Shown here: one piece after another, positions 10,394-42,453 of the stretch
How positions within the stretch are numbered: the stretch's first letter is position 1
Layout of the letters: each line of letters begins with the position of its first letter
Assembly (NCBI RefSeq): GCF_018780075.1
Contig: NZ_JADMKB010000011.1
Location: 1-64,000, forward strand
DNA length: 64,000 bases
Origin: Hydrogenophaga sp.
GTDB lineage: Bacteria > Pseudomonadota > Gammaproteobacteria > Burkholderiales > Burkholderiaceae_C
Reading direction: 5' to 3'
Position numbers and translations under genes: made by a program
Notes under the pieces: model-generated
What the model was told of the DNA's origin: nothing
Seen by the model: only the letters and a program-made list of their open reading frames with translations
Databases searched by the model: none

Positions 10394-10410
10394 ATTCCAA
10401 CCTGTGGAAT
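10394..10410. promoter_or_regulatory. ATTCCA-N5-TGGAAT dyad, putative IclR operator
   Basis: ATTCCAACCTGTGGAAT is a perfect 6-bp inverted repeat with a 5-bp spacer. On the minus strand it is followed, 28 bases downstream of TGGAAT, by CCTAGA, a possible -10 element for the receptor/CoA-transferase operon. The same dyad with the same 28-base distance to CCTAAG occurs at 42437-42453 beside an iclR-family gene. Confidence 0.65.
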
Positions 10411-12633: not shown

Positions 12634-12666
12634 GGAAAACTCCTTGACGGGATCGGGTGGGGTGGA

Positions 12667-12963: not shown

Positions 12964-12977
12964 TGGGGGTCTCCGGT

Positions 12978-15792: not shown

Positions 15793-15796
15793 GGTG

Positions 15797-16948: not shown

Positions 16949-16954
16949 CTCCGG

Positions 16955-17971: not shown

Positions 17972-17987
17972 GCCGTTCTTTCTGGGA

Positions 17988-18470
17988 TCAGAGCGTCCAG
18001 GTGTCGAGGATGAAAGCGCCGTCCTTGCGGTGCAGCAGCACGATGTCCAGCACATCCAGCGGGTTGATCGGGCGGATGCCTTCGATCAGCGCACCTTCGC
18101 CGTGGCCGTAGAGCGCCTGCAGCGCAAAGCGGCAGGCGTAGACCTTGCCGCCTTCGGCGATGAACTTGGCGATCTGTTCGTTGAAGTTCTGGTGCCCGGG
18201 GAAAGCCGAGTCACCCAGCTTGGGGAAGCCACGCTTGACCCCCAGCGTCACGCCAGGGCCATACAGCAGGATGGAGGTCTCGAAGCCCTTGCGCTGCAGC
18301 CGTGTGGCCTGCAGCAGGTTGACGAAACCGATCGAGCCTTCGAAGGCCACGGTGTGGAAGGTCACGAGGGCCTTCTCACCGGGTGCAGCTTTCACATCTT
18401 CAAAAACCTTCTCTTCGTAGTCGACCAGGAAATCGCCCTTCTGGGCTGCGGGGTGAGTGACTTGGGGCAT
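17988..18470 (-). CDS. MSMEG_0572/Sll0783-family nitrogen-starvation response protein (Nit1C cluster, NitB-type)
   Basis: Protein of 160 residues, first gene of the cluster. It contains [42 protein letters not shown] and [21 protein letters not shown], a DsrE/DsrF-like alpha/beta arrangement. Its cyanobacterial homologue Sll0783 is induced by nitrogen starvation and affects polyhydroxybutyrate accumulation. Start 18470 (MPQVTHPA) is the first codon compatible with the conserved region. It is preceded by a well-matched sigma-54 promoter, which agrees with nitrogen control. Biochemical role unknown. Confidence 0.88.
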
Positions 18471-18825: not shown

Positions 18826-20220
18826 ATGTCGTTCACCCACTGGATCGCCCGACTCAGGAGCAGCACGCTGCCGGCTTACCAGCTCATCCCGGAGCTGATT
18901 GCGAACGACCTGCAGATGGGGCGGATCGCTCCGAGAGAACGCCTGCCCCCCCTGCGAGAACTGGCGTCACAGCTGGACCTCAACTACACCACCGTGGTGC
19001 GGGGCTTTGCCGAGGCCCGGGAACGTGGACTGATCGTCTCCCGACCGGGTCTGGGCTCGTTCGTGCGCGGCTCGTTCATCGGCTTGCCGCTGCGCGCCGG
19101 CACAGGTGCCGAGATGACCATGAACCTGCCGCCCGAGCTGGCGGACCATCCAGCGTTTCAGCAAGCCCAGGAGCAGGCGGCCCGGTCGATGGCGCAGGCG
19201 AATTTCCAGGACCTGATGCGCTACCAGGACTTTGGCGGGGCCACCCGGGACCGGTACCAGGCCGCGCAGTGGATGGCCCAGTGGGTGCCCGAGGCCGTGC
19301 CGGAGCGGCTGCTTGTGGCCCCGGGCATCCACAGCGTCCTGCTGGCGCTGACCAGCCTGCTGGTCAAACCCGGGCAGTCGCTGTGTGTGGAGCCGCTGGT
19401 CTACCCGGGCATCAAGGCCATCGCCGCCCAGCTGGGCACCCGCCTGCATCCGCTTTCGATGGACGGACAGGGACTGATCCCGGAGAGCTTCGAGGCCGCC
19501 TGCAAGAGCACGCCGGTGGGCGCGCTCTACCTGTGCCCCAACCTGCACAACCCCACGACCGCGACCCTGCCCATCCGACGCCGGGAACAGCTGGCCGACA
19601 TCGCGCTGAGACACAGCGTCCCCATCATCGAAGACGACGCCTACGGCATGCTGCCCATTGCGGCCCCGCCTCCGCTGATCGAATTCGCGCCGGAGCTGAC
19701 CTACTACATCAGCGGCCTGTCCAAATGGCTGGGCGCCGGTGTTCGGACCGCCCACGTGCTGACCCCCACCACGGCCACTCACCAACGCCTGGCCGGCGCC
19801 CTGCGAGCGACGACGGTGATGGCATCACCCATGATCAACCACGTGGTCTCGGACTGGTTCGAGCAGGGCACCGGTGTCGAAGTTCTGGCCGCCATCCGTG
19901 AGGAATGCCAATGGCGCAGCCAGACCATCCGCACCCGTCTGGCGAGCCACGGTGTGCGGACCCAGCCGAACGGCTTTCATGCCTGGCTGCCGCTGCAGGC
20001 GCGTGAAGATGGCCACTGCGTCGCGTCGGACATGGCCGATCAGCTGAGAAGCCTGGGTGTCGCAGCGGTCGCGGGCAGCACCTTCTCCACCGACCGGAAT
20101 CCCCCAGAAGGTTTGCGGATCTGCATGGGAGGCAGCCTGACAAGAGACGACTGTGGTCGGGCACTGCAGGCCGTGGTGGATGCGCTGGAGCACTGTCAGG
20201 CGGGCAAAACGACCACCTGA
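18826..20220 (+). CDS. MocR-type (GntR + aminotransferase I) transcriptional regulator
   Basis: Regulator of 464 residues. The N-terminal GntR winged helix covers about residues 12-75 (PAYQLIPELIANDLQMGRI ... ERLPPLRELASQLDLNYTTV). A fold-type-I aminotransferase domain follows from about 100, with the PLP lysine in ISGLSKWLGAG. The start at 18826 (MSFTHWIARL) gives the usual short lead into the winged helix; an in-frame ATG at 18733 would add 31 residues. It is divergent from the Nit1C-type cluster, so it is the obvious local candidate regulator, sensing an amino-compound through PLP. It could instead repress only itself. Confidence 0.85.
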   Translation: MSFTHWIARLRSSTLPAYQLIPELIANDLQMGRIAPRERLPPLRELASQLDLNYTTVVRGFAEARERGLIVSRPGLGSFVRGSFIGLPLRAGTGAEMTMNLPPELADHPAFQQAQEQAARSMAQANFQDLMRYQDFGGATRDRYQAAQWMAQWVPEAVPERLLVAPGIHSVLLALTSLLVKPGQSLCVEPLVYPGIKAIAAQLGTRLHPLSMDGQGLIPESFEAACKSTPVGALYLCPNLHNPTTATLPIRRREQLADIALRHSVPIIEDDAYGMLPIAAPPPLIEFAPELTYYISGLSKWLGAGVRTAHVLTPTTATHQRLAGALRATTVMASPMINHVVSDWFEQGTGVEVLAAIREECQWRSQTIRTRLASHGVRTQPNGFHAWLPLQAREDGHCVASDMADQLRSLGVAAVAGSTFSTDRNPPEGLRICMGGSLTRDDCGRALQAVVDALEHCQAGKTTT

Positions 20221-20313: not shown

Positions 20314-21138
20314 TCAAGGGATGCATGGGTCCTCGGTTGAACCGTGGAGGGCAACCCTTGCATCCAGAAACTGCCTCAGCACGCGATTGAACTGAGAAGG
20401 CTGCTCAATGCAGGTCATGTGGGCAGCGTCCGACACGACAGCCAGCACCGAGTCGGGCAGCGCGCGGTGGATGGTCAGCGCCGACGCCAGGGGCGTCCCG
20501 ATGTCGTGCTCGCCCACGATCACCAACACCGGGCAGGCGATCTCGTGCAGGCGGGATGTGGTGTTCACACCCGAGATGGCCGCGCAGCAGCCGGCCCATC
20601 CATCGACCGAGGTGCGGCCAATCGTCCGCGCCACCGCGGCCACCCGCTCGGGCTGTCGCTCGCGGTAAGCCTGCGTGAACCAGCGGCCGATAGCAGGTTG
20701 CACCAGCGGCGCCATGCCCTGCTCCAACGCCACCCGGATGCGCTCGTCCCACACCGAGTGAGGGGTGGCGTGGTGTTCGCTCGTGGTGTCGGCCAGCACC
20801 ACGGCCTGTGTGAGCGAGGGGTGCTTCAGCGCGAACGTCTGCCCGATCATTCCGCCCATGGAGAACCCCACCCAGACAGCGCTCCGAATGCCGACGTGCT
20901 TCATCAGCGCGGCGGCGTCATCGGCCAACTGGTCCAGCGTGTAGGGCCCTGCCGTCGCTTCGCTGCGACCGTGCCCACGCGTGTCGTAGCGCAGCACACG
21001 GTAGCGCCCCGTCAGCGCCGGCATCTGCGGGTCCCACATGGCCATGTCGCAACCCAGCGAGTGGGACATCACCAGCCAGGGACCACTGTCTCCGTCGATG
21101 CTGTACTCGACCTCGATGCCGTTGAGGGTGGTTCGCAT
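20314..21138 (-). CDS. Alpha/beta-hydrolase, 3-oxoadipate enol-lactonase-like
   Basis: Hydrolase of 274 residues resembling PcaD: it begins with a short NGIEVEYSIDG strand, then VMSHSLGCDMAMWDPQM, RYDTRGHGRSE, the nucleophile elbow WVGFSMGGMIGQ and a C-terminal histidine in SDAAHMTCIEQP. PcaD opens 3-oxoadipate enol-lactone, but no other protocatechuate-branch genes except a PcaF-like thiolase occur in this window, so another lactone or ester is equally likely. It is the last gene of the operon that starts with the cupin at 26905 and follows a Bug receptor by 13 bp. Confidence 0.8.
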   Translation of the reverse strand: MRTTLNGIEVEYSIDGDSGPWLVMSHSLGCDMAMWDPQMPALTGRYRVLRYDTRGHGRSEATAGPYTLDQLADDAAALMKHVGIRSAVWVGFSMGGMIGQTFALKHPSLTQAVVLADTTSEHHATPHSVWDERIRVALEQGMAPLVQPAIGRWFTQAYRERQPERVAAVARTIGRTSVDGWAGCCAAISGVNTTSRLHEIACPVLVIVGEHDIGTPLASALTIHRALPDSVLAVVSDAAHMTCIEQPSQFNRVLRQFLDARVALHGSTEDPCIP

Positions 21139-21151
21139 GACCGTGGGTTCC

Positions 21152-22147
21152 TCAGTTCGGCTGGATGTTCGCCGCTTTGGCGATGCGGGCGTACTTGGTG
21201 ATCTCGGACTCGATCAGCGCACGGAACTGGGCTGGTGAGGCCGTGGACTGCGTCACGCCCATGGCCACCAGCTGCTTCTGCACATCGGGCAGCCGCAGGA
21301 CCGCCGTCATGTCCTTGTGCAGCTGCTCCACCACCGGTGCGGGTGTCTTTGCCGACACCAGCAAGCCGTACCAGAACTTCCACTCGTAGCCCGCGATGCC
21401 CGCCTCTGCCACGGTGGGCACGTCGGGCAGGTCGGGGAGGCGTTTGTCGCCGGTCACGGCCAGTGCGCGAACCCTGCCCTCGTTCACCAGCTTGATCGCC
21501 GAAACATAGGGCGCCACGTGAAAGTGCACCCGACCCGCAATGGTTTCGGTCATGGCTTCGCCAACACCCTTGTAGGGGATGTTCAGCACGTCGATGCCTG
21601 CCTGCATGCAGAACAAGGCCGCGGCAAAGTGCGAGCTGCTGCCCACGCCCGCCGACGAGTAGTTCAACGCGCCAGGCTGTGCCTTCGCCTGTGCAACGAG
21701 ATCGGCCAGGTCTTTGGCCTTCAGGTCCTTGGGCGCCACGATCAGCGCGGGACCGTCGCCGATCAAGGTGACCGGCGTGAAATCACGCAGTGTGTCGTAG
21801 GGCACCTTCTTGAAGATGGCGGGCGCCGTGGCGTGCGCGGGTGACACGCTCAGGATGGTCGTGCCGTCGGCCGGCGCGTTCAACACCGCCTGGGCCGCCA
21901 GCGTGCCGCCGGCCCCCAGCTTGTTCTCGACAAGGGCCGGAATGCCCCAGCGTTCCGAAATGCGGGCCGCCATGGCACGGGCCGCCGCATCCGGCACACC
22001 GCCCGCACCGAAGCCGACGACAAACTTGTAGAGCGGCAGTGCAGGCTTCGATGGTTCGGCCGTCTGCGCCCAGGCACCCAGGCTGGTGGGCAGCGTGCTG
22101 GCGGCCGCGGCCTGAAGCAACCAGCGGCGGGTGTGGGTGGTGGTCAT
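21152..22147 (-). CDS. TctC/Bug-family periplasmic receptor with Tat-like signal
   Basis: Receptor of 331 residues. The N-terminus has two adjacent arginines before the hydrophobic core (TRRWLLQAAAAS), which may be a Tat signal, and cleavage is predicted after AWA. The mature part has YKFVVGFGAGGVPDAAARAMAAR, NKLGAGGTLAAQAVL and SSAGVGSSSHFAAALF, placing it in a more divergent Bug branch than the others here (GFGAGG in place of PFPAGG). The start at 22147 is 55 bp beyond the ABC ATPase gene in the same direction. Its presence inside a sugar-type ABC operon is unusual. Ligand unknown. Confidence 0.86.
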   Translation of the reverse strand: MTTTHTRRWLLQAAAASTLPTSLGAWAQTAEPSKPALPLYKFVVGFGAGGVPDAAARAMAARISERWGIPALVENKLGAGGTLAAQAVLNAPADGTTILSVSPAHATAPAIFKKVPYDTLRDFTPVTLIGDGPALIVAPKDLKAKDLADLVAQAKAQPGALNYSSAGVGSSSHFAAALFCMQAGIDVLNIPYKGVGEAMTETIAGRVHFHVAPYVSAIKLVNEGRVRALAVTGDKRLPDLPDVPTVAEAGIAGYEWKFWYGLLVSAKTPAPVVEQLHKDMTAVLRLPDVQKQLVAMGVTQSTASPAQFRALIESEITKYARIAKAANIQPN

Positions 22148-22202
22148 GGTGTTGTCTCCTGGCTGGTAAAAAAACCGCCTCTCGTTGCGCGCAAGCGCTC
22201 GC

Positions 22203-23297
22203 TCAAGGGGCGATGAGGCGCTCCGTTTCGGGATCGAAGAGGCAGACGGCAGAAACGTCCACCGCCACGTGCAGACGCTCCCCCGCCGCCCGCACGCGCT
22301 TCGGGGAGAGGCGAATCGCCACACGGCTGCCGTTGATCTCGGTGAAGCCGAAGGTGTCCGCCCCGGTGGGCTCGATCATGTCGAACACGACCTCCAGCGA
22401 AGCGGCATGCTCAGGCTTGACGTCGTGGAGGTGTTCAGGCCGCAGCCCGAGCACCACCTGGCGCCCGGTCCAGCTGGGGTCCTGGACGGCGCCCAGCACG
22501 ATCTTCGCGTGTCCCTGGGTGTTGCGCAGGTCGACCACCCAGCGGCCGTCTTCGATCTGCAGCGTCACCGGCAGGAAGTTCATCGTGGGTGAGCCCATGA
22601 ACCCGGCCACATACAGGTTGGCGGGCCGGTCGTAGATGTCTTCCGGTGTGCCCAGTTGCTGCACCCGACCGTCCTTCATCACCGCAATGCGGTCGCCGAG
22701 CGTCATGGCCTCGATCTGATCGTGGGTCACGTAGACCACGGTGCTCTTCAGGCGCTGGTGCAGGGACTTGATCTCGGCCCGCATCTCCACGCGCAACTTG
22801 GCGTCCAGGTTGGACAGCGGTTCGTCGAACAAGAACACCTTGGGATCGCGCGCCAGCGCACGGCCCATCGCCACCCGCTGCCGCTGCCCCCCGGACAACT
22901 GCGCCGGCCGGCGGTCCAGCAGCTGATCGATCTGCAAGGTCTTGGCCACACGCGCCACCACGGCGTCGCGCTCGGGCTTGGGCACCTTGCGCATCTCCAT
23001 CGCAAAGGCGATGTTCTCGCCCACCGTCATGCTGGGGTACAGCGCGTAGCTCTGAAACACCATCGCGATGTCCCGGTCCTTCGGGCTGACGTCGTTCACG
23101 ACCCGGTCACCGATGGAGATGTCTCCCTCGCTGACCGTGTCCAGCCCGGCGATCATCGACAGCAGCGTGCTCTTGCCGCAGCCAGACGGGCCGACGAGGA
23201 TGAGGAACTCGCCGTCGGCGACCTCGATATCGATACCGTGCAGCACGGTGGTGCTGCCGAAGTGTTTGCGTACGTTGCGAATGCTGACACTGGCCAT
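22203..23297 (-). CDS. ABC importer ATPase, UgpC/MalK type
   Basis: ATP-binding subunit of 364 residues for a carbohydrate-type (CUT1) importer. The ATPase domain has Walker A GPSGCGKST at 37-45, the Q-loop VFQSYALYP, the ABC signature LSGGQRQR near residue 135 and Walker B VFLFDEPLSNLD, then the H-loop VTHDQIEAM. Residues from about 235 form the C-terminal regulatory OB-fold domain with GLRPEHLH. It follows the MalG-type permease by 27 bp and works with the two permeases and the binding protein upstream. MalK-type ATPases can serve several importers, so a shared role is possible. Confidence 0.92.
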   Translation of the reverse strand: MASVSIRNVRKHFGSTTVLHGIDIEVADGEFLILVGPSGCGKSTLLSMIAGLDTVSEGDISIGDRVVNDVSPKDRDIAMVFQSYALYPSMTVGENIAFAMEMRKVPKPERDAVVARVAKTLQIDQLLDRRPAQLSGGQRQRVAMGRALARDPKVFLFDEPLSNLDAKLRVEMRAEIKSLHQRLKSTVVYVTHDQIEAMTLGDRIAVMKDGRVQQLGTPEDIYDRPANLYVAGFMGSPTMNFLPVTLQIEDGRWVVDLRNTQGHAKIVLGAVQDPSWTGRQVVLGLRPEHLHDVKPEHAASLEVVFDMIEPTGADTFGFTEINGSRVAIRLSPKRVRAAGERLHVAVDVSAVCLFDPETERLIAP

Positions 23298-23324
23298 GGT
23301 CTATGACTCCTCGTTTTTAAAAGT

Positions 23325-24197
23325 TCAGCCTTTGACGGCGCCAGCGGTCAGCCCGCGCACGAAGTACTTGCCGGCCAGGATGTAGAGCACCAGGGTGGGC
23401 GCGCCGGCGATCACGGCAGCGGCCATGTATGTGTTGTAGCGGGGCACGTCTTCCTGCACGTTGGTCAGGTTGTTCAGGCCCACCGTGACCAGCTGCTGAT
23501 CGCTGGGCGCCAGCACCAGCGCGAAGATGAAGTCGTTCCAGATGGCGGTGAACTGCATGATCCCGACCACCACCAGGATGGGTTTCGCGGTGGGCAGCAC
23601 CACCCGCCAGAAGATTACCCACAGACCCGCCCCGTCAATGCGCGCGGCCTTGATCAGCTCGCCCGGAAAGCCGACGAAGTAATTGCGGAAATAGAGCGCT
23701 ACCGGCACGCTGTACAGCGTGTGCACGAGCACCAGACCGACCAGCGAGTGCGACAGGTTCAGCTGCGAAAACACCACCGACAGCGGAAACACGAACAGCG
23801 CCGCCGGCATGAAGATGCCGAACATCATCAGGAACAACACCTGGTCCACCCCGCGAAAGCGCCACTTCGCCAGCACGTAGCCGTTGAAGCACCCCCAGAG
23901 CGTGGAGATGACCGTGGCAGGCACCACCACCAGCAGCGAGTCGATGAAATAGCGGGAGAGTCCGCCACACGTCGAGGCGCCCGTGCAAGCGGTGCTCCAG
24001 GCCTCGACCCAAGGCTCCAGCGTCCACTGCGATGGCAGGCCGAGCACGTTGCCGGCCTGAAGGTCGGCCAGCGGTTTGAAGGCATTCACCAGCGCAAACC
24101 ACGCCGGCAGTGCAAAGAACAGCACGGCCAGCAACAGGCTGCCGTACACGAGCCAGCGGCCCAGGCCACGGCGTTCACCCGGCAAGCGTTCACGCAT
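23325..24197 (-). CDS. ABC importer permease, MalG type
   Basis: Inner-membrane permease of 290 residues with six hydrophobic helices. The EAA loop that docks to the ATPase is ELIKAARIDGAGLWVIFWRV near residues 183-202. The protein ends GKYFVRGLTAGAVKG, the typical MalG-like C-terminus. It lies 39 bp after the MalF-type gene. The first periplasmic loop contains two cysteines (ACTGASTCGG) that could form a disulfide. Confidence 0.9.
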   Translation of the reverse strand: MRERLPGERRGLGRWLVYGSLLLAVLFFALPAWFALVNAFKPLADLQAGNVLGLPSQWTLEPWVEAWSTACTGASTCGGLSRYFIDSLLVVVPATVISTLWGCFNGYVLAKWRFRGVDQVLFLMMFGIFMPAALFVFPLSVVFSQLNLSHSLVGLVLVHTLYSVPVALYFRNYFVGFPGELIKAARIDGAGLWVIFWRVVLPTAKPILVVVGIMQFTAIWNDFIFALVLAPSDQQLVTVGLNNLTNVQEDVPRYNTYMAAAVIAGAPTLVLYILAGKYFVRGLTAGAVKG

Positions 24198-24236
24198 GTT
24201 GATCTCCGAGAGGAAAGAGGTAGAGGTCCATGGGGT

Positions 24237-25124
24237 TCAGTCGTGGCGGTGCTTCTTCAGCTCGCCCAGGATGTAAGGCACAGCGACCATCGCGCAGGTC
24301 ATCAAAAGCACCATGGCGGATGCGGCACCCAGGCCCATCTGGTCGCGGCGGAAGAAGCGGTCGAACACATAGAAGGCCGGCAGCACGCTGCTTTGACCGG
24401 GCCCACCCTGGGTGAGCACCACGACCAGGTCGAAGGTGCGCAGCGCTGCGGGCAAGAGGATCAGCGCGGCGCTGAAGATGGTGGGCCTCAGCGTTGGCAG
24501 GAGCACGCGCAGGTAGATACGCGGTTTGCTGGCGCCGTCGATCATGGCGGCCTTGATCACCGAGTCGTCGATGCTGCGAAGCCCCGCGATGAACATCGAC
24601 ATCACGAAACCCGTGCTGGCCCAGACCGCCACGATGACGAGTGCGTAGATGGACATTTTGGGCTGCACGATCCAGTCGAACACGGCACCCTCAAAACCCG
24701 CGCCGATCAGCCATTTCTCGATGCCGGTATCGGGGGTCAGCAGCCAGCGCCAGATCGTGCCGGCCACGATCCAGCTCAAGGCCAGCGGATAGAGCACGGC
24801 GGTGCGGATGCCGTTTTCAAAGCGCACCTTCTGGTCCAGCAGCATGGCCAGCAGGCAGCCCAGGATCAGCGGCAGACCCACCACCAGCGGCAGGTACTTG
24901 GCCAGGTTCCACAGGGAGCGCCACCAGCTGTCATCGGCAAACAGACGGATGTACTGATCCCAGCCCACCCAGTTCCAGGTGACCACGCCCTCGGAGTCGG
25001 TGAACGACACCGCGCCCACCCAGATCGTGAGCCCATAGAAAAACACCAGGCTCACCACGAGCGCGGGCGACACGGCCAGCTGGGGCAGCCACTTGTCCAG
25101 AAAGAGTCGTGAAGAGGCGCTCAT
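24237..25124 (-). CDS. ABC importer permease, MalF type
   Basis: Inner-membrane permease of 295 residues with six hydrophobic helices, no MalF-style large periplasmic insertion, and the EAA loop VIKAAMIDGASKPRIYLRV near residues 197-215. It is the partner of the MalG-type permease and is 31 bp downstream of the binding-protein gene. The layout binding protein, MalF, MalG, MalK is the usual CUT1 order. Confidence 0.9.
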   Translation of the reverse strand: MSASSRLFLDKWLPQLAVSPALVVSLVFFYGLTIWVGAVSFTDSEGVVTWNWVGWDQYIRLFADDSWWRSLWNLAKYLPLVVGLPLILGCLLAMLLDQKVRFENGIRTAVLYPLALSWIVAGTIWRWLLTPDTGIEKWLIGAGFEGAVFDWIVQPKMSIYALVIVAVWASTGFVMSMFIAGLRSIDDSVIKAAMIDGASKPRIYLRVLLPTLRPTIFSAALILLPAALRTFDLVVVLTQGGPGQSSVLPAFYVFDRFFRRDQMGLGAASAMVLLMTCAMVAVPYILGELKKHRHD

Positions 25125-25155
25125 GTTGCGACGGCGTTGGGTTGATCGATCACGC

Positions 25156-26421
25156 TCAACGATTGGCCTTGGCCGCGTTGGCGAAGCTCAAGGCCGCCTG
25201 CTGTGGCGTGATGCTGTCGTCGTTCCAGAAAGACAGCACCACGTCACGCCACGCACCGATGCGTGCGGGCGACTGGAACAGGTTGGGTGTGGCGACCGCC
25301 GTGCCGTCCTTGCCACCGGCCACGAGATCGGCGTGGCTCTGTTTGGCGCAATCGTCGAACTTCGAGACATCGGCATCGGTCCGCACCGGCACGGAGCCTT
25401 TGGCCAGACTGAAGGCCACCTGGGCATCCTTGTCCATGAACACCTGCGCCAGATCGGCCTGGGCCTTGGCGTTCTGTGCGACCTTGAAGAACAGGAACGC
25501 GTCGGACGTGAACACGTGTCCCCGGCCGCTGCCGGGCACCGTGGCGCAGAGGTAGTCAGCGCCCTGGCGCTTGCCGGCCACGGTGAACTCGCCCTTGGCC
25601 CAGTCACCCATCACCTGCGCAAAGGCACGGCCCTGAATCACCATCTGGGTGGCTTCGTTCCACTTGCGGGTGGAGGCACTGCGATCCACATAGCCACGCA
25701 AACGGCGCATCACCTCGAAGGCCTTGACCATGCCCGCACCCTTGAGCTGGGCCTCGTCACCGTCATAGAACGCCTTGCGGTACTCATCGGGCTTGTGGGT
25801 GGTGAAGGCCACCTGCATGAAAGTGAAGTTGACCCAGATGTCCTCCCCCATCGCCAGCGGCTGAATGCCTGCGGCCTTGGCCTTGTCGGCCATGGCGAAA
25901 AATTCATCCCAGGTTTTGGGCGCGGCCGTGGCGCCGATCCTCTTCATCGCCTCGGTGCTGATCCACATCACGTTCTGGCGGTGGACGTTGACGGGCACCG
26001 CGACATAGCTCTTGGTCCCCAGCCGCGCATAGCGGCGCACCGGCTCGGGCAGCACCTCGTCCCACTTGCCTTGGGCCGCCACGGCGTCGAGGTTGGCCAC
26101 GATGTCGGGATTGGCCGCATAGCTGCGCACAGCACCATTGATCTGCGCTGCGGTCGGTGGATCGCCCTTGGCCACGCGCGTCTTGAGCAGAATGCGCTGG
26201 CTGTCGCCACCGCCCACCGCCAGGTCGTCCCACTCGAGTCCGCGCCGGACCGCCGCTTCCTTGAACTTCGCAACCGCCGCCGTTTCACTGGCGCTGGTCC
26301 ACCAGTGAATGACCTCCACCTTCTCCGCCGCCCACAGGGGCGTGGTGGCCAGCGCGGTCATGGCGCATGCGGCCCAACGGGTGACACGCTGTGTCGGTTT
26401 GATCTGGAACGGAAATGTCAT
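25156..26421 (-). CDS. ABC importer extracellular solute-binding protein, family 1 (sugar type)
   Basis: Periplasmic sugar-type binding protein of 421 residues. The signal peptide ends near residue 31 (LWA-A). The mature protein begins EKVEVIHWWTSASETAAVAKF, the standard opening of family-1 binding proteins that recognise oligosaccharides or glycosides. Two cysteines (YLCATV and FDDCAKQ) are spaced as in glucose/mannose-type CUT1 binding proteins, where they form a disulfide. It is the second gene of the operon, 85 bp after a cupin gene. Given the porin and family 3 glycosidase in the same putative regulon, a glucoside or glucose is a reasonable but unproven ligand. Confidence 0.88.
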   Translation of the reverse strand: MTFPFQIKPTQRVTRWAACAMTALATTPLWAAEKVEVIHWWTSASETAAVAKFKEAAVRRGLEWDDLAVGGGDSQRILLKTRVAKGDPPTAAQINGAVRSYAANPDIVANLDAVAAQGKWDEVLPEPVRRYARLGTKSYVAVPVNVHRQNVMWISTEAMKRIGATAAPKTWDEFFAMADKAKAAGIQPLAMGEDIWVNFTFMQVAFTTHKPDEYRKAFYDGDEAQLKGAGMVKAFEVMRRLRGYVDRSASTRKWNEATQMVIQGRAFAQVMGDWAKGEFTVAGKRQGADYLCATVPGSGRGHVFTSDAFLFFKVAQNAKAQADLAQVFMDKDAQVAFSLAKGSVPVRTDADVSKFDDCAKQSHADLVAGGKDGTAVATPNLFQSPARIGAWRDVVLSFWNDDSITPQQAALSFANAAKANR

Positions 26422-26506
26422 TTCAATGTCTCCTTGGTGGAATGGCGAAGCTCAGGCTCTGCACGTGCCGGGGTTGCACAGCAGGCGACGAGCAGCAATG
26501 CAGGAA

Positions 26507-26905
26507 TCAGACGAGGTCTATCTCGATAAAAACGACCGGAACCGCCCCCTGGTTCTGCAGGGCGTGCGGCTTCATGAAGGTCGCATAGGACTGACCCGAC
26601 CGGACCGTGACGGGCTGGTCCTCGCCTTCGAGGTACTCGGTCATCACCCCTTGAAGTACGAAGGCCACAGCCGGACGGCTCGCGTGCGAATGCATGGGCA
26701 GAAAGCCACCGGGCTCGATGGTGACTTCGCGCATGCGAAGACGGCGCCCGTCGTGCATGCTGAATCCGGCCGGCAATTCGACAGCGGCGAGCTCCTTGCC
26801 GTTGATGCCCACACGCTCGGTCGGCAGCAGGCGCGTGGATGCGCCACGCTCCGCCGAATCGGCGGAGCAGTTCGCCATTTGCTGTGCTGGATGGGTTGCG
26901 TTCAT
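26507..26905 (-). CDS. Small cupin-domain protein
   Basis: Single-domain cupin of 132 residues. The metal-binding cupin motif 1 reads PGGFLPMHSHASRPAVAFVLQG near residues 68-89, with HSH ligands, and motif 2 contains FMKPHALQN. There is no signal peptide. Start 26905 (MNATHPAQQ) follows a promoter sharing the CGGTATTGGAC element. As first gene of an ABC-importer operon it may be an isomerase or dioxygenase for the imported compound, or a small-molecule-binding accessory. The reaction cannot be assigned. Confidence 0.8.
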   Translation of the reverse strand: MNATHPAQQMANCSADSAERGASTRLLPTERVGINGKELAAVELPAGFSMHDGRRLRMREVTIEPGGFLPMHSHASRPAVAFVLQGVMTEYLEGEDQPVTVRSGQSYATFMKPHALQNQGAVPVVFIEIDLV

Positions 26906-26962
26906 GGTGGACTCCGGCCCCGGTTGAGGCGAGTTTTTCTGCGTTGATTTCACTGAGGAAAA

Positions 26963-26996
26963 GTCTATTGAGGCAGCTTCCGGCGGTCCAATACCG
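26963..26996 (-). promoter_or_regulatory. CGGTATTGGAC promoter of the cupin/ABC/receptor operon
   Basis: On the minus strand CGGTATTGGAC (26996-26986) contains a -35-like TTGGAC. It is followed at 17-18 bases by ATAGAC/TAGACT as a weak -10 element. The start codon at 26905 is 81 bases from the element. It matches two other promoters in the window base for base over the 11-mer. Confidence 0.6.
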
Positions 26997-27069
26997 TGTG
27001 GATTGAACTGTGATCGCAACCGCGAATAAGCAGTCCACCGAAGACCCCGACCTGTGGCAAGTCGACCCC

Positions 27070-27789
27070 TCACAAGTCCGCTGCGGCGTCCAGTCCCGCT
27101 GCGGCCAGCACGGGGACGGACGCCTGTGATCGCAGGTGCCGGACAAAGCTCAACGCCAGCCCCGGTTGCGCGCTCGAAGCGAGCACACCCGCGGACACCG
27201 CGGTTCGGTGCTGGACCGCTTCAGGCAGCGCGCCCACAAACCGGATGCCCGGCACAGGCAGCAGTTCGCACACCTGCTGGAAACCCAGCTCGGCATCTCC
27301 ACGCGCCACCACAGCGGCCACCGGCTCATGGGCGAAACGCTGGCAACGGCCCAACACGTCGGAATCGATGCCCAGACGCTGCAGCAGTTGCCCGGCCACG
27401 TACTCGCCGCTGCCGGCCTGCGACAGCGCCACCGAGCGGCTCCGAAGCAGCGCCAGCCTCAGTTCTTCAAGCGTTCCGATCAGGGGAAGCGGCTGTTCCA
27501 CGTGCACACAGAGGCCGATGCCGGAGCGCAGCACCTCTGCACAGGTGCCCGTCAGGACCAGGCCTGTGCGTGACCGTTCTTCCAGCAGCCTTGTCGGGAG
27601 CAACACCACGTCGGCCACCTCGCCGCGATCGAGTCGCGCCGTGATGGCGCGTTCGCTGCTGCCGGTCGCCGGTCCGTAGCCCATCGCCACGGCCGGCCCG
27701 CCCGCATCGGTGAAGTGCTTCGCCAGCGCATCCAGCGCGTGCGAGAAGGCTTGCGGCGCCAACACCCGCAGCACAGGCCCGGCGGTCAC
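27070..27789 (-). CDS. ModA-like substrate-binding-domain protein without signal peptide
   Basis: Protein of 239 residues with a type-2 periplasmic-binding fold: LRVLAPQAFSHALDALAKHF opens like molybdate-binding ModA, GATGSSERAITARL-type residues follow (here GYGPATGSSERA), and RGEVADVVLLPTRLLEE is the ModA-type ligand loop. The start is a GTG at 27789 overlapping the upstream hydrolase stop (GTGA), so translation is coupled. No secretion signal is present, so it probably acts in the cytoplasm, perhaps as a ligand-sensing or accessory protein and not as a transport receptor. No ABC partners adjoin it. Confidence 0.72.
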   Translation of the reverse strand: MTAGPVLRVLAPQAFSHALDALAKHFTDAGGPAVAMGYGPATGSSERAITARLDRGEVADVVLLPTRLLEERSRTGLVLTGTCAEVLRSGIGLCVHVEQPLPLIGTLEELRLALLRSRSVALSQAGSGEYVAGQLLQRLGIDSDVLGRCQRFAHEPVAAVVARGDAELGFQQVCELLPVPGIRFVGALPEAVQHRTAVSAGVLASSAQPGLALSFVRHLRSQASVPVLAAAGLDAAADL

Positions 27790-28511
27790 TTCAGCCCTTC
27801 CAGCAGCGCCGCCAGGCCTTCGGGGTCGTCGATCATCGGGTCGTGGCCGCAACCGTCCATCACCGCGGTGCGCCAGCCGGCATCGGCCTGACAGCGTGCG
27901 AGTGCCGCGTCGAAGACAGGCTGCGGGAACAAGGGCGTGCGCACGTACAGCTTGTGTCGCACACGCTCGCGGGCGCCACTCAGCCGCACAGGGTCCATGG
28001 AAACGCCCAGCGGCTGCGGTGTGATGTGGGCGTCGACCCAGGCCGCGTCTTCGGGGCGCTGTATGCGCAGGGCGGTGCTGGTCGGTCCGGGCCTGGAGAC
28101 TTCCCCCAGGGCCTTGGCCGCTTCCAGTTGGGCCTTCTGCTGCTCGTTCAGCAGGTCGTGGCCGCGTTGCCCATCTTCAGGCAGGAACGCATCGACATAC
28201 GCGAGGGCGGAAACACGTGACTCCAGTTGCTCGACGGCGCCGCTGACGACCCAGCCGCCGTAGGAGTGGGCCACCAGCGTCGCGTCTTCGACGTCTTCCC
28301 AGCGGAACAGATTCACCACATCTTGAATGTGGGTCTGCAGCGTGATGTCTCCACTCATCAGGTGTGAACGCTCGGCGAGCCCTGTGAGTGTGGGCGTGTG
28401 CACGCGATGACCATGGGCGCGCAGCAGATCGGCCAGGCGGCGCCATGCCCAGGCGCCATGGCCTGCGCCATGAACGAGCACAAATGTTCGGGGTTGGGAT
28501 GTGGATGTCAT
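27786..28511 (-). CDS. Alpha/beta-hydrolase, plant methylesterase / hydroxynitrile-lyase-like family
   Basis: Hydrolase of 241 residues. It opens FVLVHGAGHGAWAWRRLADLL, the start typical of the small methylesterase/EstC-like family, with nucleophile elbow VAHSYGGWV near residue 84 and the catalytic histidine in GCGHDPMID. The start at 28511 (MTSTSQPR) is 53 bp after the Bug receptor. It probably hydrolyses an aromatic or short-chain ester brought in by the regulon's transporters; the substrate is not known. Confidence 0.8.
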   Translation of the reverse strand: MTSTSQPRTFVLVHGAGHGAWAWRRLADLLRAHGHRVHTPTLTGLAERSHLMSGDITLQTHIQDVVNLFRWEDVEDATLVAHSYGGWVVSGAVEQLESRVSALAYVDAFLPEDGQRGHDLLNEQQKAQLEAAKALGEVSRPGPTSTALRIQRPEDAAWVDAHITPQPLGVSMDPVRLSGARERVRHKLYVRTPLFPQPVFDAALARCQADAGWRTAVMDGCGHDPMIDDPEGLAALLEGLK

Positions 28512-28564
28512 GCGGAAGGTGGGTGTTGATTGAGATTCGCTGGTCGGGTGACGGTGTGGTGAGG

Positions 28565-29566
28565 TCACTCCAGCGTGATGCGCGTTTCTTTGGCGATCGC
28601 AGCCCACTCGCGTCGCTGGGCAGACAGGGCGGCACCGAAGTCCTCTTCGAACTCAGGCTCAAGCCCCAGCTTTCGAATGCCCTCCAGCACGGCAGGCAAC
28701 TTGCCCACCTCTCGCAGCGCCGATTGCAGGCGGGAAACCACCGCCGGTGGCGTGGCGACAGGCGCCAGCAGCCCATACCAATTGATCGATGGCACACCGA
28801 GCACCCCGCTTTCCTTCAGCGTGGGAACGTCGGGCAAGTCGGCCATGCGCGAGGGGCTTGTCACGGCCAGCGCGCGCAGCTGGCTTTTCTGTATCAACGG
28901 CAGCAGCACCGCCTTGTTGGTGACCGTCATCGCCAGGTGACCGCCCAACGTGTCCTGGATCGCCAGTGCGGCCCCTTTGTAGGGCACGAAAGTCATGTCG
29001 GCACCAGTACGCAGCTTGAACAGCTCGATCACAAAATGCGGACCGATCCCGGGCGCTGAACCCGCATTCACCTTGCCGGGATGGCTCTTGCTGTACTGCA
29101 CGAACTCGGCCACGTTCTTCACCGGCAAGCCGGGGTGAATCGCCAGCAACATGGCGTCGGTCGCGATGGCGCCCACCGGAACAAAGTCCTTCACCGGGTC
29201 GTAGTCCAGTCCCTTGAAGACGGCCGGTATCACCACGTTGAGGTTGGTGCCCCCAATCATGATCGTGTACCCGTCGGCAGGCGCGGAGGTCACCGCTTTG
29301 GAGCCGATGCGCCCACCCGCACCACCGATGTTGGTCACGATGACCGAGGTCTTCAATCGTTCGGCAAGGTGGGGAGCAACGAGCCGCGCCGCGATGTCGT
29401 TGGGCCCACCAGGCACAAACGGAACAATGAGTTTGATCGGCCTGGAGGGATAGCCCGGATCGGACTGGGCGAACGCCATGCCCGACGCGGACACCACCAA
29501 GGCCAACATGGCCCGCGCAGTCCATCGACGGGTGACGGACCCGTGTTGTTCAGCATTCAAGTTCAT
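28565..29566 (-). CDS. TctC/Bug-family periplasmic receptor
   Basis: Receptor of 333 residues. The signal peptide core is ARAMLALVVSASGMAFA, with cleavage before QSDPGYPSRPIKLIVPFVPGGPNDIAARL, which carries the Bug signature with GGPND in place of GGGTD. IGGAGGRIGSKAV and SAPGIGPHFVIELF follow. The start at 29566 has AGAGGA upstream at about 7 bases. It leads a three-gene operon with the hydrolase and ModA-like protein and is transcribed from a CGGTATTGGAC promoter, divergent from the porin gene. Ligand unknown. Confidence 0.88.
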   Translation of the reverse strand: MNLNAEQHGSVTRRWTARAMLALVVSASGMAFAQSDPGYPSRPIKLIVPFVPGGPNDIAARLVAPHLAERLKTSVIVTNIGGAGGRIGSKAVTSAPADGYTIMIGGTNLNVVIPAVFKGLDYDPVKDFVPVGAIATDAMLLAIHPGLPVKNVAEFVQYSKSHPGKVNAGSAPGIGPHFVIELFKLRTGADMTFVPYKGAALAIQDTLGGHLAMTVTNKAVLLPLIQKSQLRALAVTSPSRMADLPDVPTLKESGVLGVPSINWYGLLAPVATPPAVVSRLQSALREVGKLPAVLEGIRKLGLEPEFEEDFGAALSAQRREWAAIAKETRITLE

Positions 29567-29592
29567 GGTCGTTCCTCTGTTTGGAGCGCAAA

Positions 29593-29626
29593 CTTTAGGA
29601 CGCTGACGATGCCCAGTCCAATACCG
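29593..29626 (-). promoter_or_regulatory. CGGTATTGGAC promoter of the receptor/hydrolase/ModA-like operon
   Basis: On the minus strand CGGTATTGGAC is at 29626-29616 with -35 TTGGAC, a 17-base spacer, and -10 CTAAAG at 29598-29593. The flanking TCCAAT-ACCG-ATTGGA dyad at 29617-29632 is perfect here and overlaps the -35, as expected for an operator. The start codon at 29566 gives a short leader of roughly 20 bases. Confidence 0.68.
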
Positions 29627-29778
29627 ATTGGAAACGACTGATATCTCACGACCGGATAACGCGAGCCTGCCTCCACCCTCCTCTCCCTCCTCCCTTTGAG
29701 CAGACGACAACCCCCTCCGGCGCCGCTGACCCGGATGCTGGCCGCTTATTCGCGGACGCAATCAGAGATGGATGCCAA

Positions 29779-29812
29779 CGGTATTGGACGGCCCTTGTGA
29801 GCGGTCCTAAAT
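29779..29812 (+). promoter_or_regulatory. CGGTATTGGAC promoter of the porin/glycosidase unit
   Basis: CGGTATTGGAC at 29779-29789 supplies -35 TTGGAC (29784-29789). A 17-base spacer and -10 CTAAAT (29807-29812) follow. The predicted start near 29819 leaves about 35 bases before the TTG start codon at 29854, which rules out the in-frame GTG at 29797 as the porin start. Confidence 0.68.
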
Positions 29813-29853
29813 TCCGCCGCGGCATCCCTCAACACCGATCACCGGAGATTCAC

Positions 29854-30885
29854 TTGAAACACACCCACCTCACCATCGCCCTGGCCGGCCTGCTGACCGC
29901 GGCCGGCGCATCCGCGCAAAGCCATGTCACCGTCTTCGGCGTTGCCGACGCAGGGATCCGCAAAACCACCAACGGTGCCGAGTCAGAAACCAGTCTGGCC
30001 AGCGGTGGCCTGGCGGGCAGCCGGTTCGGCATTCGGGTGGAAGAAGACCTGGGCGGTGGCATGAAAGCGGGCGGATGGATCGAGGGCACGGTGAACCTCG
30101 ACAACGGCACCGCGAACACCACCCGCCTTTGGAACCGCCGCACCACCGTCAGCCTCTCCGGCGCATTGGGCGAGGTCATCCTGGGCCGCTCATTGACACC
30201 GGGCTACACCGCTTTCGGTGAGTACGACACCTTTGGCACCAGCGGGCTGGCCGACCAGGGCAAGTTCCACTCGACAGCGTTCGGCAGCGGCATCGAAGCC
30301 ACCGGTCTCTGGGCCCGCGCCGACAACTCGGTGGCCTACAACACACCGAAGACACTGGGTGGCTTCTATGCCAACGCCATGTGGGCAGCGGGCGAAGGTG
30401 TGGCCGCATCGGCCTTCAGGGGCGCGCGCCTCGGCTATGCGGCTGGCCCGCTGGACGTCTCAGGCGCCTACAGCGTGATCGACGCCACGGCGGGCGACCA
30501 CAAGCGCACCTCGCTGGCCGGACGCTACGACTTGGGCGTCGTCAAGCTTTTCGGCAGCCTGGTGGTCAACGAGTACCTTGAGGCCAAACGCACCATCACA
30601 CAGCTGGGCGTCCATGTGCCGGTCGGTTCGGCTGGCACGGTGCGCGCCAACATCACAAGGGCAGACGCCTCCGGCCAGCAGGGCGGGACCTCGATCAGCG
30701 CGGACGATGCCACGCAAGTGGCCCTGGGCTATGTGCACGCGCTGTCCAAGCGCACCAGCCTGTACGGCACCTACGCCCGCATCACCAACAAGGGCGCGGC
30801 CAAGTTCGCCGTGAGCACGCCGCCGGCGGCCGTGGCTGGTCAGGCTTCCCGCGGCATCGAATTCGGTCTGAGCCACCGCTTCTGA
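29854..30885 (+). CDS. Gram-negative outer-membrane porin
   Basis: Burkholderiales-type general porin of 343 residues. The signal peptide is LTIALAGLLTAAGASAQ, and the mature barrel begins SHVTVFGVADAGI, close to the family's SSVTLYGVADVG. It ends GIEFGLSHRF with the terminal phenylalanine required for outer-membrane assembly. The start is a TTG at 29854 preceded by CGGAG at a suitable distance; no ATG fits. It is followed after 32 bp by the family 3 glycosidase, so it probably admits that enzyme's substrate. Predicted to form a trimer in the outer membrane. Confidence 0.9.
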   Translation: MKHTHLTIALAGLLTAAGASAQSHVTVFGVADAGIRKTTNGAESETSLASGGLAGSRFGIRVEEDLGGGMKAGGWIEGTVNLDNGTANTTRLWNRRTTVSLSGALGEVILGRSLTPGYTAFGEYDTFGTSGLADQGKFHSTAFGSGIEATGLWARADNSVAYNTPKTLGGFYANAMWAAGEGVAASAFRGARLGYAAGPLDVSGAYSVIDATAGDHKRTSLAGRYDLGVVKLFGSLVVNEYLEAKRTITQLGVHVPVGSAGTVRANITRADASGQQGGTSISADDATQVALGYVHALSKRTSLYGTYARITNKGAAKFAVSTPPAAVAGQASRGIEFGLSHRF

Positions 30886-30917
30886 ACAGCGCCATCCGCA
30901 TTGAAGGTCTGACTCCC

Positions 30918-32804
30918 ATGCATTCGAACCTGCAGGCCCGCCATGTCCCGTTGCTGGACCTGGAGGGTCTGCGGTTCAAGGACCACAACCGCAACGGCCA
31001 GCTCGATCCCTATGAGGATTGGCGGCGACCCGCCAGCGAGCGCGCGAGCGACCTTGTCGCTCGCATGAGCCTGGCCGAGAAGGCGGGCGCCATGATGCAC
31101 GCCAACCCGCCGTCCTCGGCCTCCTCGACGCTGCCCGGCGCTGGCGTGGCCTGGGCGTTCCCCGCGGTGGCCGACATGGTGCTCGGGCGCCACATCACGG
31201 CGTTTCTGAACCGGTTGAACACCGGGGTGCGCGAGATAGCTACACAGCACAACCAGCTCCAGGCCATCGCCGAAACGGGCCGGCTGGGCATCCCGGCGCT
31301 GCTGTCGTCCGACCCCCGCAACCAGTTCGCCGCATCGCAAGGGGTCAGCGTGGCGGCGGGCGCGTTCACGCAGTGGCCCGACCCCGCCGGTCTGGCGGCC
31401 ATTGGCGATGAAGATCTGGTGCGCCGTTGTGCCGCGAGCGTGCGGCAGGAGTACCGTGCGGTGGGCATCCGCATGGCGCTCTCGCCGATGGCCGATCTCG
31501 CGATCCATCCGCGCTGGCACCGCGGCAGCGGCTGCTTCGGCAACGAGCCCCAACTGGCCGCGCGCCTGGTCCGGGCCTACGTGGAAGGCATGCAGGCGGG
31601 TGATCGTGGTCTGTTCCCCGAGAGCGTGGTTTCGGTGGTCAAGCACTGGGTGGGCTACGGCGCCACACAGGTCGATGGCTTCGATGCCCACAACCACTAC
31701 GGCCGGCACATGGGCGCCACCAGTGCCGACATCGAATCGCACATCGTGCCGTTCACCGGCGCCTTTGCTGCCGCCGTGGGGGCCGTGATGCCCGCCTACA
31801 GCTTGCCGCCAGCGGGCCTGACCGTGCAAGGGACCCAGGGTGAGATCGAACGTGTGGGCGTGGGCTTCAACAAGCAACTGCTGACCGACATCCTGCGCCA
31901 TCGATTTGGCTTCGCCGGTGTGGTGATGTCCGACTGGCACATCACCGACGGTGCCAGCCGCGCCTGCATCGAAGGAGCGCCACCCGGGAGCCAGCCGGGT
32001 CCGGAAGACATTGCCATGCCCTGGGGGGTGGAAGACCTGCCCAAGAGCGAGCGTTTCACCAAGGCGGTCCTGGCCGGTGTGGACCAGTTTGGCGGTGCGC
32101 AGGATCCGGGCTGGATCATCGACGCGGTCCAGCGGGGACTGCTGCCGATGGAGGCCCTGAACCAGGCGGTGCATCGCATCATGACCCAGCGGTTTGCGTT
32201 GGGATTGTTCGAGGATCCCTACGTCGACGAGGAAGCGGCCGAGTCCCTGGTGGGCCACGAGACCGTGCAGGCGATGGCGCTGGAAGCGCAGCGGCGCTCG
32301 CTGGTCCTTCTGAAGAACCACGGGGCCACGCTGCCGCTGCGCGGCAGGCCGAAGCTGTACCTGCACCAGATCGATGCCGACCTGGCCCGGCGGTACGGGT
32401 TGGAGGTGGCGGAACGGCCCGAAGACGCCGACCTCGCCATCGTCGGACTGAGCACGCCCCATGAAGTGCTGCACCCGCAACACTTCTTCGGACGCCGCTA
32501 CCGCGAAGGTGACACGGGCTTTGCCGAGGATGACCCCGCGTACCGGTCGTTTCGCCAGATCGCCGGCTGTGTGCCCACTGTGGTGTCGATCTACCTGGAG
32601 CGACCGGCCGATCTGGCCCGGATCGCGCCCTGGGCCACCGCCATCGTGGCGCACTTCGGTCTGCGGCCGGAGGCGTTGTTCGATGTGCTGACGGGCCGTC
32701 ATGCGCCGACGGGCCGTTTGCCCTTCGATCTGCCGTGGAGTGGCCCACGGCCAGATCCCACCGAGACCGTCACCCAGCGTGGCCAGGGCCTGCGCTACGG
32801 TTGA
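30918..32804 (+). CDS. Glycoside hydrolase family 3 protein (beta-glucosidase-like)
   Basis: GH3 enzyme of 628 residues. The TIM-barrel domain has KHWVGYG at 242-248 and the catalytic nucleophile D339 in GVVMSDWHITDGA. The second alpha/beta sandwich domain starts near RRSLVLLKNHGATLPL. An N-terminal DHNRNGQLDPYE segment (residues 22-33) looks like an EF-hand-type calcium loop (D22, N24, N26, E33), unusual for a bacterial GH3. No signal peptide is visible, so the enzyme is probably cytoplasmic and acts on an imported glycoside. The usual C-terminal fibronectin-III domain is absent. It is coupled to the porin gene and converges with the lysR gene. Confidence 0.86.
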   Translation: MHSNLQARHVPLLDLEGLRFKDHNRNGQLDPYEDWRRPASERASDLVARMSLAEKAGAMMHANPPSSASSTLPGAGVAWAFPAVADMVLGRHITAFLNRLNTGVREIATQHNQLQAIAETGRLGIPALLSSDPRNQFAASQGVSVAAGAFTQWPDPAGLAAIGDEDLVRRCAASVRQEYRAVGIRMALSPMADLAIHPRWHRGSGCFGNEPQLAARLVRAYVEGMQAGDRGLFPESVVSVVKHWVGYGATQVDGFDAHNHYGRHMGATSADIESHIVPFTGAFAAAVGAVMPAYSLPPAGLTVQGTQGEIERVGVGFNKQLLTDILRHRFGFAGVVMSDWHITDGASRACIEGAPPGSQPGPEDIAMPWGVEDLPKSERFTKAVLAGVDQFGGAQDPGWIIDAVQRGLLPMEALNQAVHRIMTQRFALGLFEDPYVDEEAAESLVGHETVQAMALEAQRRSLVLLKNHGATLPLRGRPKLYLHQIDADLARRYGLEVAERPEDADLAIVGLSTPHEVLHPQHFFGRRYREGDTGFAEDDPAYRSFRQIAGCVPTVVSIYLERPADLARIAPWATAIVAHFGLRPEALFDVLTGRHAPTGRLPFDLPWSGPRPDPTETVTQRGQGLRYG

Positions 32805-32828: not shown

Positions 32829-33722
32829 TCAGCCCATGGTCGGCACCAGATCGGGCAGCACGAAATCGACCACCTCTTGCAACAGCGGCGACGTGATGTC
32901 GGGTCGCCACACCGCGTCGATCTGGATCACGCCAGCCGCGGGGGGCAAGGCGATGACGCACAGACCCGTGCCTGCGGCGCTGGCATAGGAAGCAGGCACC
33001 ACGCAGATGCCGAGCCCCTGCCGCACCATCTGGAACATGCTCATCGGGTGTCGCGCCACGTGCACCAGCCGCGGACTGAAACCCGCATTCATGCAGGCCG
33101 CCACGAGCGAGTCGAACAAGGCGGAGCGGTGTTCGCGCGAAAAGGTGATCATGGGTTCCTCGGCCAGATCGAGCAGACCCAGCGCACTGCGCCCAGCCAA
33201 AGCATGGCCTTCAGGCAGGACCACGGCCAGTCCTTCAATGTGCACGGGCCGGCGGGCCAGTGCCTTGGCCACCACGCGAGCATGCACAAACCCCAGGTCG
33301 ATGCGGTCCTGTGTCAGGGCGCGCACCTGGTCTTCCGAACCCATGTCGGTCAACACCACTTGGGCCAGCGCGCCGCGCTCGCGCACGCCGGCCAGGAACG
33401 CGGGCAACACGCGGTCGATGGCCGAGGTGGCCATGCCCACCCGCAGCGTGCCGGTTCGCCCCTGTCCCGAGAGACGGGCCCGCTGGAGAGCGACCTGCGC
33501 CTGGTCCAGCAGCGCACGGCTGTCGTGGAGGAAGGTGCGCCCGGCCGCCGTGAGCTTGACCTCGCGACGGTTGCGCTCCAGCAGCACGATGCCGAGCTCG
33601 TCTTCCAGCATCTTGATCTGGTGCGACAAAGGCGGCTGACTCATGTGCAGCCGCAGTGCGGCACGACTGAAGTTCAACTCCTCGGCAACGGTCACGAAAT
33701 AGCGGAGTTGACGCAGATCCAT
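32829..33722 (-). CDS. LysR-family transcriptional regulator
   Basis: LysR-type regulator of 297 residues. The winged-helix domain opens MDLRQLRYFVTVAEELNFSRAALRLHMSQPPLSHQIKMLE. The effector domain starts near LRVGMATSAIDRVLPAFLAGV. The FVTVAEELNFSRAA pattern is that of the BenM/CatR-like group, which responds to aromatic acid intermediates. It lies between the glycosidase gene (convergent) and the thiolase gene (same strand, 69-bp gap). It could be the last gene of the beta-oxidation-like operon or the regulator of the CGGTATTGGAC promoters; the sequence alone does not decide. Confidence 0.88.
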   Translation of the reverse strand: MDLRQLRYFVTVAEELNFSRAALRLHMSQPPLSHQIKMLEDELGIVLLERNRREVKLTAAGRTFLHDSRALLDQAQVALQRARLSGQGRTGTLRVGMATSAIDRVLPAFLAGVRERGALAQVVLTDMGSEDQVRALTQDRIDLGFVHARVVAKALARRPVHIEGLAVVLPEGHALAGRSALGLLDLAEEPMITFSREHRSALFDSLVAACMNAGFSPRLVHVARHPMSMFQMVRQGLGICVVPASYASAAGTGLCVIALPPAAGVIQIDAVWRPDITSPLLQEVVDFVLPDLVPTMG

Positions 33723-42436: not shown

Positions 42437-42453
42437 ATTCCATTCAGTGGAAT
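42437..42453. promoter_or_regulatory. ATTCCA-N5-TGGAAT dyad between receptor operon and iclR gene
   Basis: ATTCCATTCAGTGGAAT is a perfect dyad in the 193-bp divergent interval, 112 bp from the receptor start and 66 bp from the iclR start. On the minus strand, 28 bases after TGGAAT, comes CCTAAG, a -10-like element placed exactly as at the 10.4-kb copy. Confidence 0.7.

Follow-up and report, generated by a model that had tools for sequence, protein, structure and literature searches.

A probable twelve-gene, three-promoter LysR-type regulon inside a two-regulator island of Hydrogenophaga sp.

Genes and promoters of the island

The window analyzed here, a 64,000-nucleotide stretch of Hydrogenophaga sp. 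(NCBI RefSeq assembly GCF_018780075.1, contig NZ_JADMKB010000011.1, positions 1 to 64,000 of the forward strand), carries a gene island with uptake and catabolic functions in which one 11-mer, CGGTATTGGAC, precedes three transcription units. Unit 1 (20314-26905, minus strand) comprises seven genes, for a cupin, an ATP-binding cassette (ABC) binding protein, two permeases, an ATPase, a TctC/Bug receptor, and an alpha/beta hydrolase (from Pfam matches and gene picks), and was treated as one operon on an assumption drawn from gene spacing. Unit 2 (27070-29566, minus strand; Pfam and reading frames) encodes a second TctC/Bug receptor (28565-29566), an alpha/beta hydrolase and a ModA-like binding protein, and unit 3 (29854-32804, plus strand; Pfam and gene picks) a porin with a TTG start and a GH3 glycosidase. 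The three units thus hold 12 genes (7 + 3 + 2), fewer than the roughly 14 that the original prediction, made from the sequence of the window, had assigned to a single regulon. Linked to them is a gene for a LysR-type regulator (32829-33722, minus strand), the candidate activator of all three promoters.

The 11-mer lies at 26986-26996 (minus strand), 29616-29626 (minus strand) and 29779-29789 (plus strand), in each case as an exact match in intergenic DNA and oriented toward the next gene, exactly where and as the original prediction had placed it. This is far above chance: first-order Markov sequences of the window's composition averaged 0.007 copies per 64 kb, and three copies appeared in none of 300 such sequences. 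Across the organism's own assembly (5.39 Mb in 191 contigs, 96.7% complete), six exact copies were found. The many unrelated genomic copies that would have spoken against the original prediction are thus absent: three copies lie beyond the window, of which those on C12 and C97 fall inside genes and the one on C101 precedes another LysR gene; here and below, intergenic and coding positions were called with a codon-usage gene picker trained on window genes, and not from annotation. At up to one mismatch the genome gave 35 matches, exact ones included, versus 88 for the reversed control word, and at up to two mismatches the window was enriched, with 26 matches against 10.5 expected.

Structurally, the 11-mer is, judging from sequence pattern, one half of a larger promoter element. 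An AT-N11-AT motif, the putative recognition site, begins at an identical distance of 31 bp before the 11-mer in all three promoters (unit 1, ATTCGCGGTTGCGAT, 27013-27027, minus strand; unit 2, ATCCGGTCGTGAGAT, 29643-29657, minus strand; unit 3, ATTCGCGGACGCAAT, 29748-29762, plus strand), and a common TTATYCG begins 33 bp before it. A TANNNT hexamer follows TTGGAC at 18 bp in every case (TAGACT at 26962-26967, minus strand; TAAAGT at 29592-29597, minus strand; TAAATT at 29808-29813, plus strand). These are the best −10 matches, which replaces the 17-base spacer that the original prediction used for two of the promoters and supplies a −10 for the first promoter, where it had named none. When the 60 bases upstream were aligned on the 11-mer, 15 columns were invariant, whereas 20,000 letter shuffles averaged 4.1 such columns and never exceeded 13, and within the window both the composite AT-N11-AT-N20/21-TTGGA and the words TTATTCG and TTATCCG occur only at these three promoters. 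If the −10 assignment is right, the center of AT-N11-AT, 29 bp before TTGGAC, falls at about −65. The motif contains the T-N11-A mark of LysR-type sites, with partial palindromy inside the island sites, and the 11-mer covers the predicted −35, the position of the LysR-type second site. LysR-type promoters are described in PMC4834489 and PMC4730206 as having a recognition site near −65 and a second site at −35; with AT-N11-AT placed around −65 and the −35 box covered by the 11-mer, the three promoters would share this layout.

Evolutionarily, the arrangement recurs in one other genome of the genus, G025, with all three units, their 11-mers and the layout preserved. Between the window and G025, none of the 63 core bases of the three promoters (AT...AT, 11-mer, and −10) is changed, against 20 of the 135 interior bases (N11, N16, and spacer; Fisher p 0.0005), 14 of these 20 changes falling in the 54 spacer bases. 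Among 67 genomes of the genus, the GH3 gene was detected (E below 1e-40) in two, the organism's own and G025, and an orthologue of the island LysR (98%) in the same two, where it is kept beside the units; the next best match was 47%, in G028. Co-regulation of the three units, which the original prediction proposed, is supported by the AT-N11-AT, TTATYCG, 18-bp spacer and −10 that they share in addition to the 11-mer, all kept in G025, and one regulator for the three is likely, on the basis of the −65 site and the layout and not of the 11-mer alone.

The module elsewhere in the genus

The genus survey covered 52 of 53 11-mer sites (G043:C537 was left out), of which 24 were intergenic and 28 coding. 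AT-N11-AT preceded the 11-mer by 30 or 31 bp at 17 of the 24 intergenic sites and at none of the coding ones, whereas at any other offset it occurred at a mean of 0.07 of the 24. After collapsing by similarity, the module was present in nine of 15 intergenic families and in none of 23 coding families, with TANNNT at spacer 18 in six of the nine, at spacer 19 in one, and at none of the remaining spacers between 14 and 22.

Three of the nine families are the island promoters. A fourth, found in five genomes, is the gap beside a LysR gene that in the organism's own genome (C101) reads toward a glutaredoxin-family gene; in the other genomes the gene picker gave different neighbors. The remaining families, named from Pfam, comprise a gap between a LysR gene and a Bug receptor gene (G038 and G066), two divergent promoters within one G066 gap (L094) that face acyl-CoA dehydrogenase and enoyl-CoA hydratase genes, with a LysR gene adjoining the hydratase, an electron transfer flavoprotein (ETF) gene in G066, and a LysR/2Fe-2S ferredoxin gap in G055 (L076). 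Four other LysR types therefore stand beside the module (at C101, the G038/G066 Bug gap, L094, and L076), and the 11-mer, with nine module families, is not restricted to the targets of one regulator. On this point the original prediction, which had taken the 11-mer as the mark of a single regulator, is not supported: in the genus, the module is common to several LysR-type promoters with different recognition sites. These −65 sites vary between regulators and agree within a group, as in G066 (ATAAGAAAACGGGAT, ATAAGCAAACGCGAT and, on the other strand, ATAGCCAAACGCGAT). G066 thereby appears to contain a second LysR group of three promoters, which have a −65 site in common, lie at two distant loci (L094, 9912-10077; L085/L119), and serve acyl-CoA dehydrogenase, enoyl-CoA hydratase, and ETF genes.

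In a tree built on 60 residues of the LysR helix-turn-helix (HTH), five non-redundant module-side LysRs lay close to the island LysR (mean distance 1.04), and none of 1000 random sets of five from 70 HTHs of the organism's own LysRs was as close (mean 2.09, minimum 1.05). Those nearest the island's, in G038 and G066, go with 31-bp spacing and a site starting with ATTCG, and the other three types with a spacing of 30.

The reach of the 11-mer has bounds. Its strong form as a general feature of LysR promoters was rejected, since the exact word was present in one of 70 upstream regions of the organism's own LysR genes (330 bp each, from 79 matches; C38:294105 was viewed apart and eight were left out). 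An order-wide module is a weak proposition as well, with AT-N11-AT at 30 or 31 bp in one of the 68 sites read outside the genus (89 listed), beside a LysR-like divergent gene (L244). Separately, L088 (G026) and L115 (G013) have a conserved 11-mer in a gap lacking the AT-N11-AT module (CTTGCGGTATTGGACTACCC), with the same left-hand gene in both.

Candidate regulators and rival explanations

The adjacent LysR, which the original prediction had proposed for footprinting, remains the best candidate because its orthologue occurs in the same two genomes as GH3, because it resembles CatM and CbnR (the closest solved structures are 7w06, of the LysR family, CatM, CbnR, and BenM), and because the module-side LysRs are close to it in the HTH. 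We hold with fair, though not high, confidence that the three units form a LysR-type regulon of this neighboring gene (32829-33722), its presumed cognate regulator, with identity read at the −65 site and the 11-mer as the shared −35 part. Mechanistically, a LysR tetramer at rest would have one dimer firmly bound to AT-N11-AT, around −65, while its second dimer occupies a weaker site over −35 (CGGTATTGGAC); binding of a pathway intermediate would then shift the second dimer, allowing RNA polymerase to use TTGGAC-N18-TANNNT. The regulator would be identified from its −65 site, the 11-mer serving as a common activation/−35 part, and the porin, the GH3 enzyme, a sugar-type ABC transporter, two Bug receptors, the ModA-like protein, the cupin, and two hydrolases would be switched on jointly.

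Several observations weigh against this LysR-type regulon. The gene order is unusual, in that LysR-type transcriptional regulator (LTTR) genes are usually divergent from a target with which they share a control region (PMC4834489, PMC4730206, in excerpt), and the island LysR gene is convergent with GH3, follows a thiolase gene, and is divergent from none of its targets. The −65 site of unit 2 is weaker (CCGG versus TCGC). The genomic comparison is shallow, G025 being the sole other genome of the genus found with the island, and it rests mostly on the spacers, with just six of the 81 N11 and N16 bases differing. Six of the 15 intergenic 11-mer families lack the module, among them an AraC-type/isochorismatase-like gap (L095, named by eye), and AT-N11-AT was found at none of 28 one-mismatch copies in the organism's own genome (28 of 29 such sites read). 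The three promoters could also in part be copies of one another.

This last point, taken to its full extent, gives an explanation in which the promoters arose by copying inside the island and look alike through descent and not through current co-regulation. Units 1 and 3 do share GCTTATTCGCGG and further bases, but between the window and G025 the spacers differ at 14 of 54 bases against 0 of 63 in the core, and we regard copying as an improbable account. Equally doubtful is control by the C101 LysR, whose gap has the fourth intergenic 11-mer and which would govern the three units together with its own neighbor. Its exact 11-mer does stand 30 bp downstream of an AT-N11-AT and recurs in G025 and three further genomes of the genus; however, at −65 it has ATCTTGTTTCAAGAT where the island has ATTCGCGG..GCAAT, its spacing is 30 and not 31, and both the regulator and the site are present in G015, G031, and G050, in which GH3 was not found (G031 is only 64% complete).

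A different kind of explanation sets the LysR-type layout aside and takes the dyad TCCAAT-N4-ATTGGA over the −35 as the operator of a non-LysR regulator, either a repressor or a class II activator, with the upstream likeness being incidental. The original prediction was right that this dyad is perfect at 29617-29632 (TCCAAT-ACCG-ATTGGA) and degenerate at the other two promoters, and in the organism's own genome TCCAAY-N4-RTTGGA occurs in two places only, there and at C38:294322. The perfect form is not kept across genomes, though: the arm away from the gene is degenerate at two promoters and, at 29627-29632, has diverged in G025 where the 11-mer has not, and an incidental upstream likeness sits poorly with the 17 of 24 intergenic sites that hold AT-N11-AT at a constant distance. 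As an operator, the dyad was rejected on its unconserved arm and its degeneracy, and we give the non-LysR alternative little chance. The C38:294322 dyad itself has a LysR gene on one side and, on the other, a gene for an FAD-binding aromatic-ring hydroxylase-like protein (flavin monooxygenase), which is followed by a Bug receptor gene.

The remaining alternative concerns the second candidate regulator of the island, an IclR-family protein (42519-43301, plus strand; family match). The palindrome ATTCCA-N5-TGGAAT, a candidate IclR operator, occurs in the organism's own genome only at 42437-42453, in the gap separating the IclR gene from a Bug/CoA operon, and at 10394-10410, upstream of a Bug receptor/family III CoA-transferase pair; the two copies flank the island, a reversed control gave none, and the TTCCA-N5-TGGAA core is kept at both corresponding places in G025. 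From its position the palindrome presumably belongs to the IclR protein. The 42437 site adjoins a series of genes (Bug, enoyl-CoA hydratase, CoA-ligase-like, hydroxyacyl-CoA dehydrogenase, MmgE, and thiolase), whose end the LysR gene follows by 69 bp. Among 53 loci with GH3 relatives, a homologue of the window porin was found before GH3 in two, those of Janthinobacterium sp. PC23-8 and Ralstonia sp. NFACC01. In the former, the gene immediately preceding porin-GH3 encodes an IclR homologue (53%); the candidate operator lies between the two and again in the IclR/ech gap, and the sole LysR match of the locus, at 28%, is some 9 kb distant. Control of the porin-GH3 pair thus appears to rest with IclR in Janthinobacterium and with LysR here. 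It could be argued from this that IclR has primary control over the entire island, with LysR secondary, and the 69-bp proximity of the LysR gene to the IclR-side series leaves room for indirect control; yet no exact ATTCCA-N5-TGGAAT was found at any of the three promoters, where an IclR operator was accordingly rejected, and we consider IclR as main controller unlikely. The original view of the island as one regulon is not supported, given the candidate IclR system flanking it, and the arrangement we find probable is a LysR-type regulon of 12 genes and three promoters within an island that two candidate regulators share.

Neighboring genes offer a further lead. A Nit1C-type cluster (11341-18470, minus strand; TIGR04042 to TIGR04049 families, with a Nit6803-type nitrilase) is accompanied by a MocR-like gene (18826-20220, plus strand). 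An excerpt of PMC11049912 links the Nit1C cluster to cyanide assimilation in Pseudomonas. G025 lacks the cluster at the corresponding spot (L093), and Ralstonia sp. NFACC01 has nitB, nitC, nitD, and nitE homologues and a MocR gene beside its porin-GH3-cupin genes. The unit 2 hydrolase (27786-28511) matches hydroxynitrile lyases and esterases alike, and a Gly after its first His presumably points to an esterase. A link of the island to nitriles or cyanogenic glycosides, through GH3, this hydrolase, and Nit1C, is possible and is kept merely as a lead. By eye, the window GH3 (30918-32804) has no signal peptide and its Janthinobacterium homologue (L011) starts with a lipoprotein-like leader, such that the cellular location of the two enzymes may differ.

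Relation to known LysR-type systems

Among the nearest precedents are the CatR/BenM/CbnR-type regulons, which pair a T-N11-A site near −65 with a second site at −35, the layout predicted for the island, and whose CatM, CbnR, and BenM regulators are among the closest solved relatives. The motif given for CatR/BenM/ClcR-type regulators in the excerpt of PMC6449761 is AkACC-N5-GGTAT. The GGTAT within the island 11-mer equals its 3′ half, but the island −65 sites do not match it, and the island differs further in that its regulator gene is not divergent and its targets are transport, glycosidase, and hydrolase genes. The same paper describes a novel CatR-like regulator of five Comamonadaceae, also LysR-type with a T-N11-A motif and with predicted targets that include COG3181 (Bug) and, unlike the island, catABC homologues; the comparison is with its published description. 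The ThnR regulon, as excerpted (PMC4834489), is similar in that one LTTR acts at multiple promoters, of which a divergent pair lies close together, and every promoter has separate primary and secondary sites, comparable to the arrangement predicted at 29592-29813; ThnR, however, needs a co-activator. Some of its promoters have a conserved secondary sequence, and conservation of this kind within one regulon is therefore not new, but in ThnR the sequence belongs to one regulator and not to several. Literature searches on the 11-mer and its variants, LTTR sites, the LysR/GH3/porin/TTT combination, and CbnR/activation sites did not yield this regulon among the matches listed, those for the 11-mer and four variants all being DNA nanostructures or gels.

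The excerpts of PMC4834489 and PMC4730206 describe LysR-type promoters as lacking conservation in their activation half, the latter stating that no conserved ABS″ (activation-site) motif had been deduced for LTTRs. We tentatively suggest, while giving it somewhat less than an even chance, that LysR-type promoters in this genus are modular, with an invariant CGGTATTGGAC-18 bp-−10 cassette common to several LysRs and regulator identity residing solely in the −65 site. If true, this would be a conserved LTTR activation-site motif, and some LTTR regulons could be found by one fixed word. A fixed word at promoters with different recognition sites would provide a handle on the activation half and a means of listing some LysR-activated promoters from sequence, and the island would show how two candidate regulators divide one catabolic gene set.

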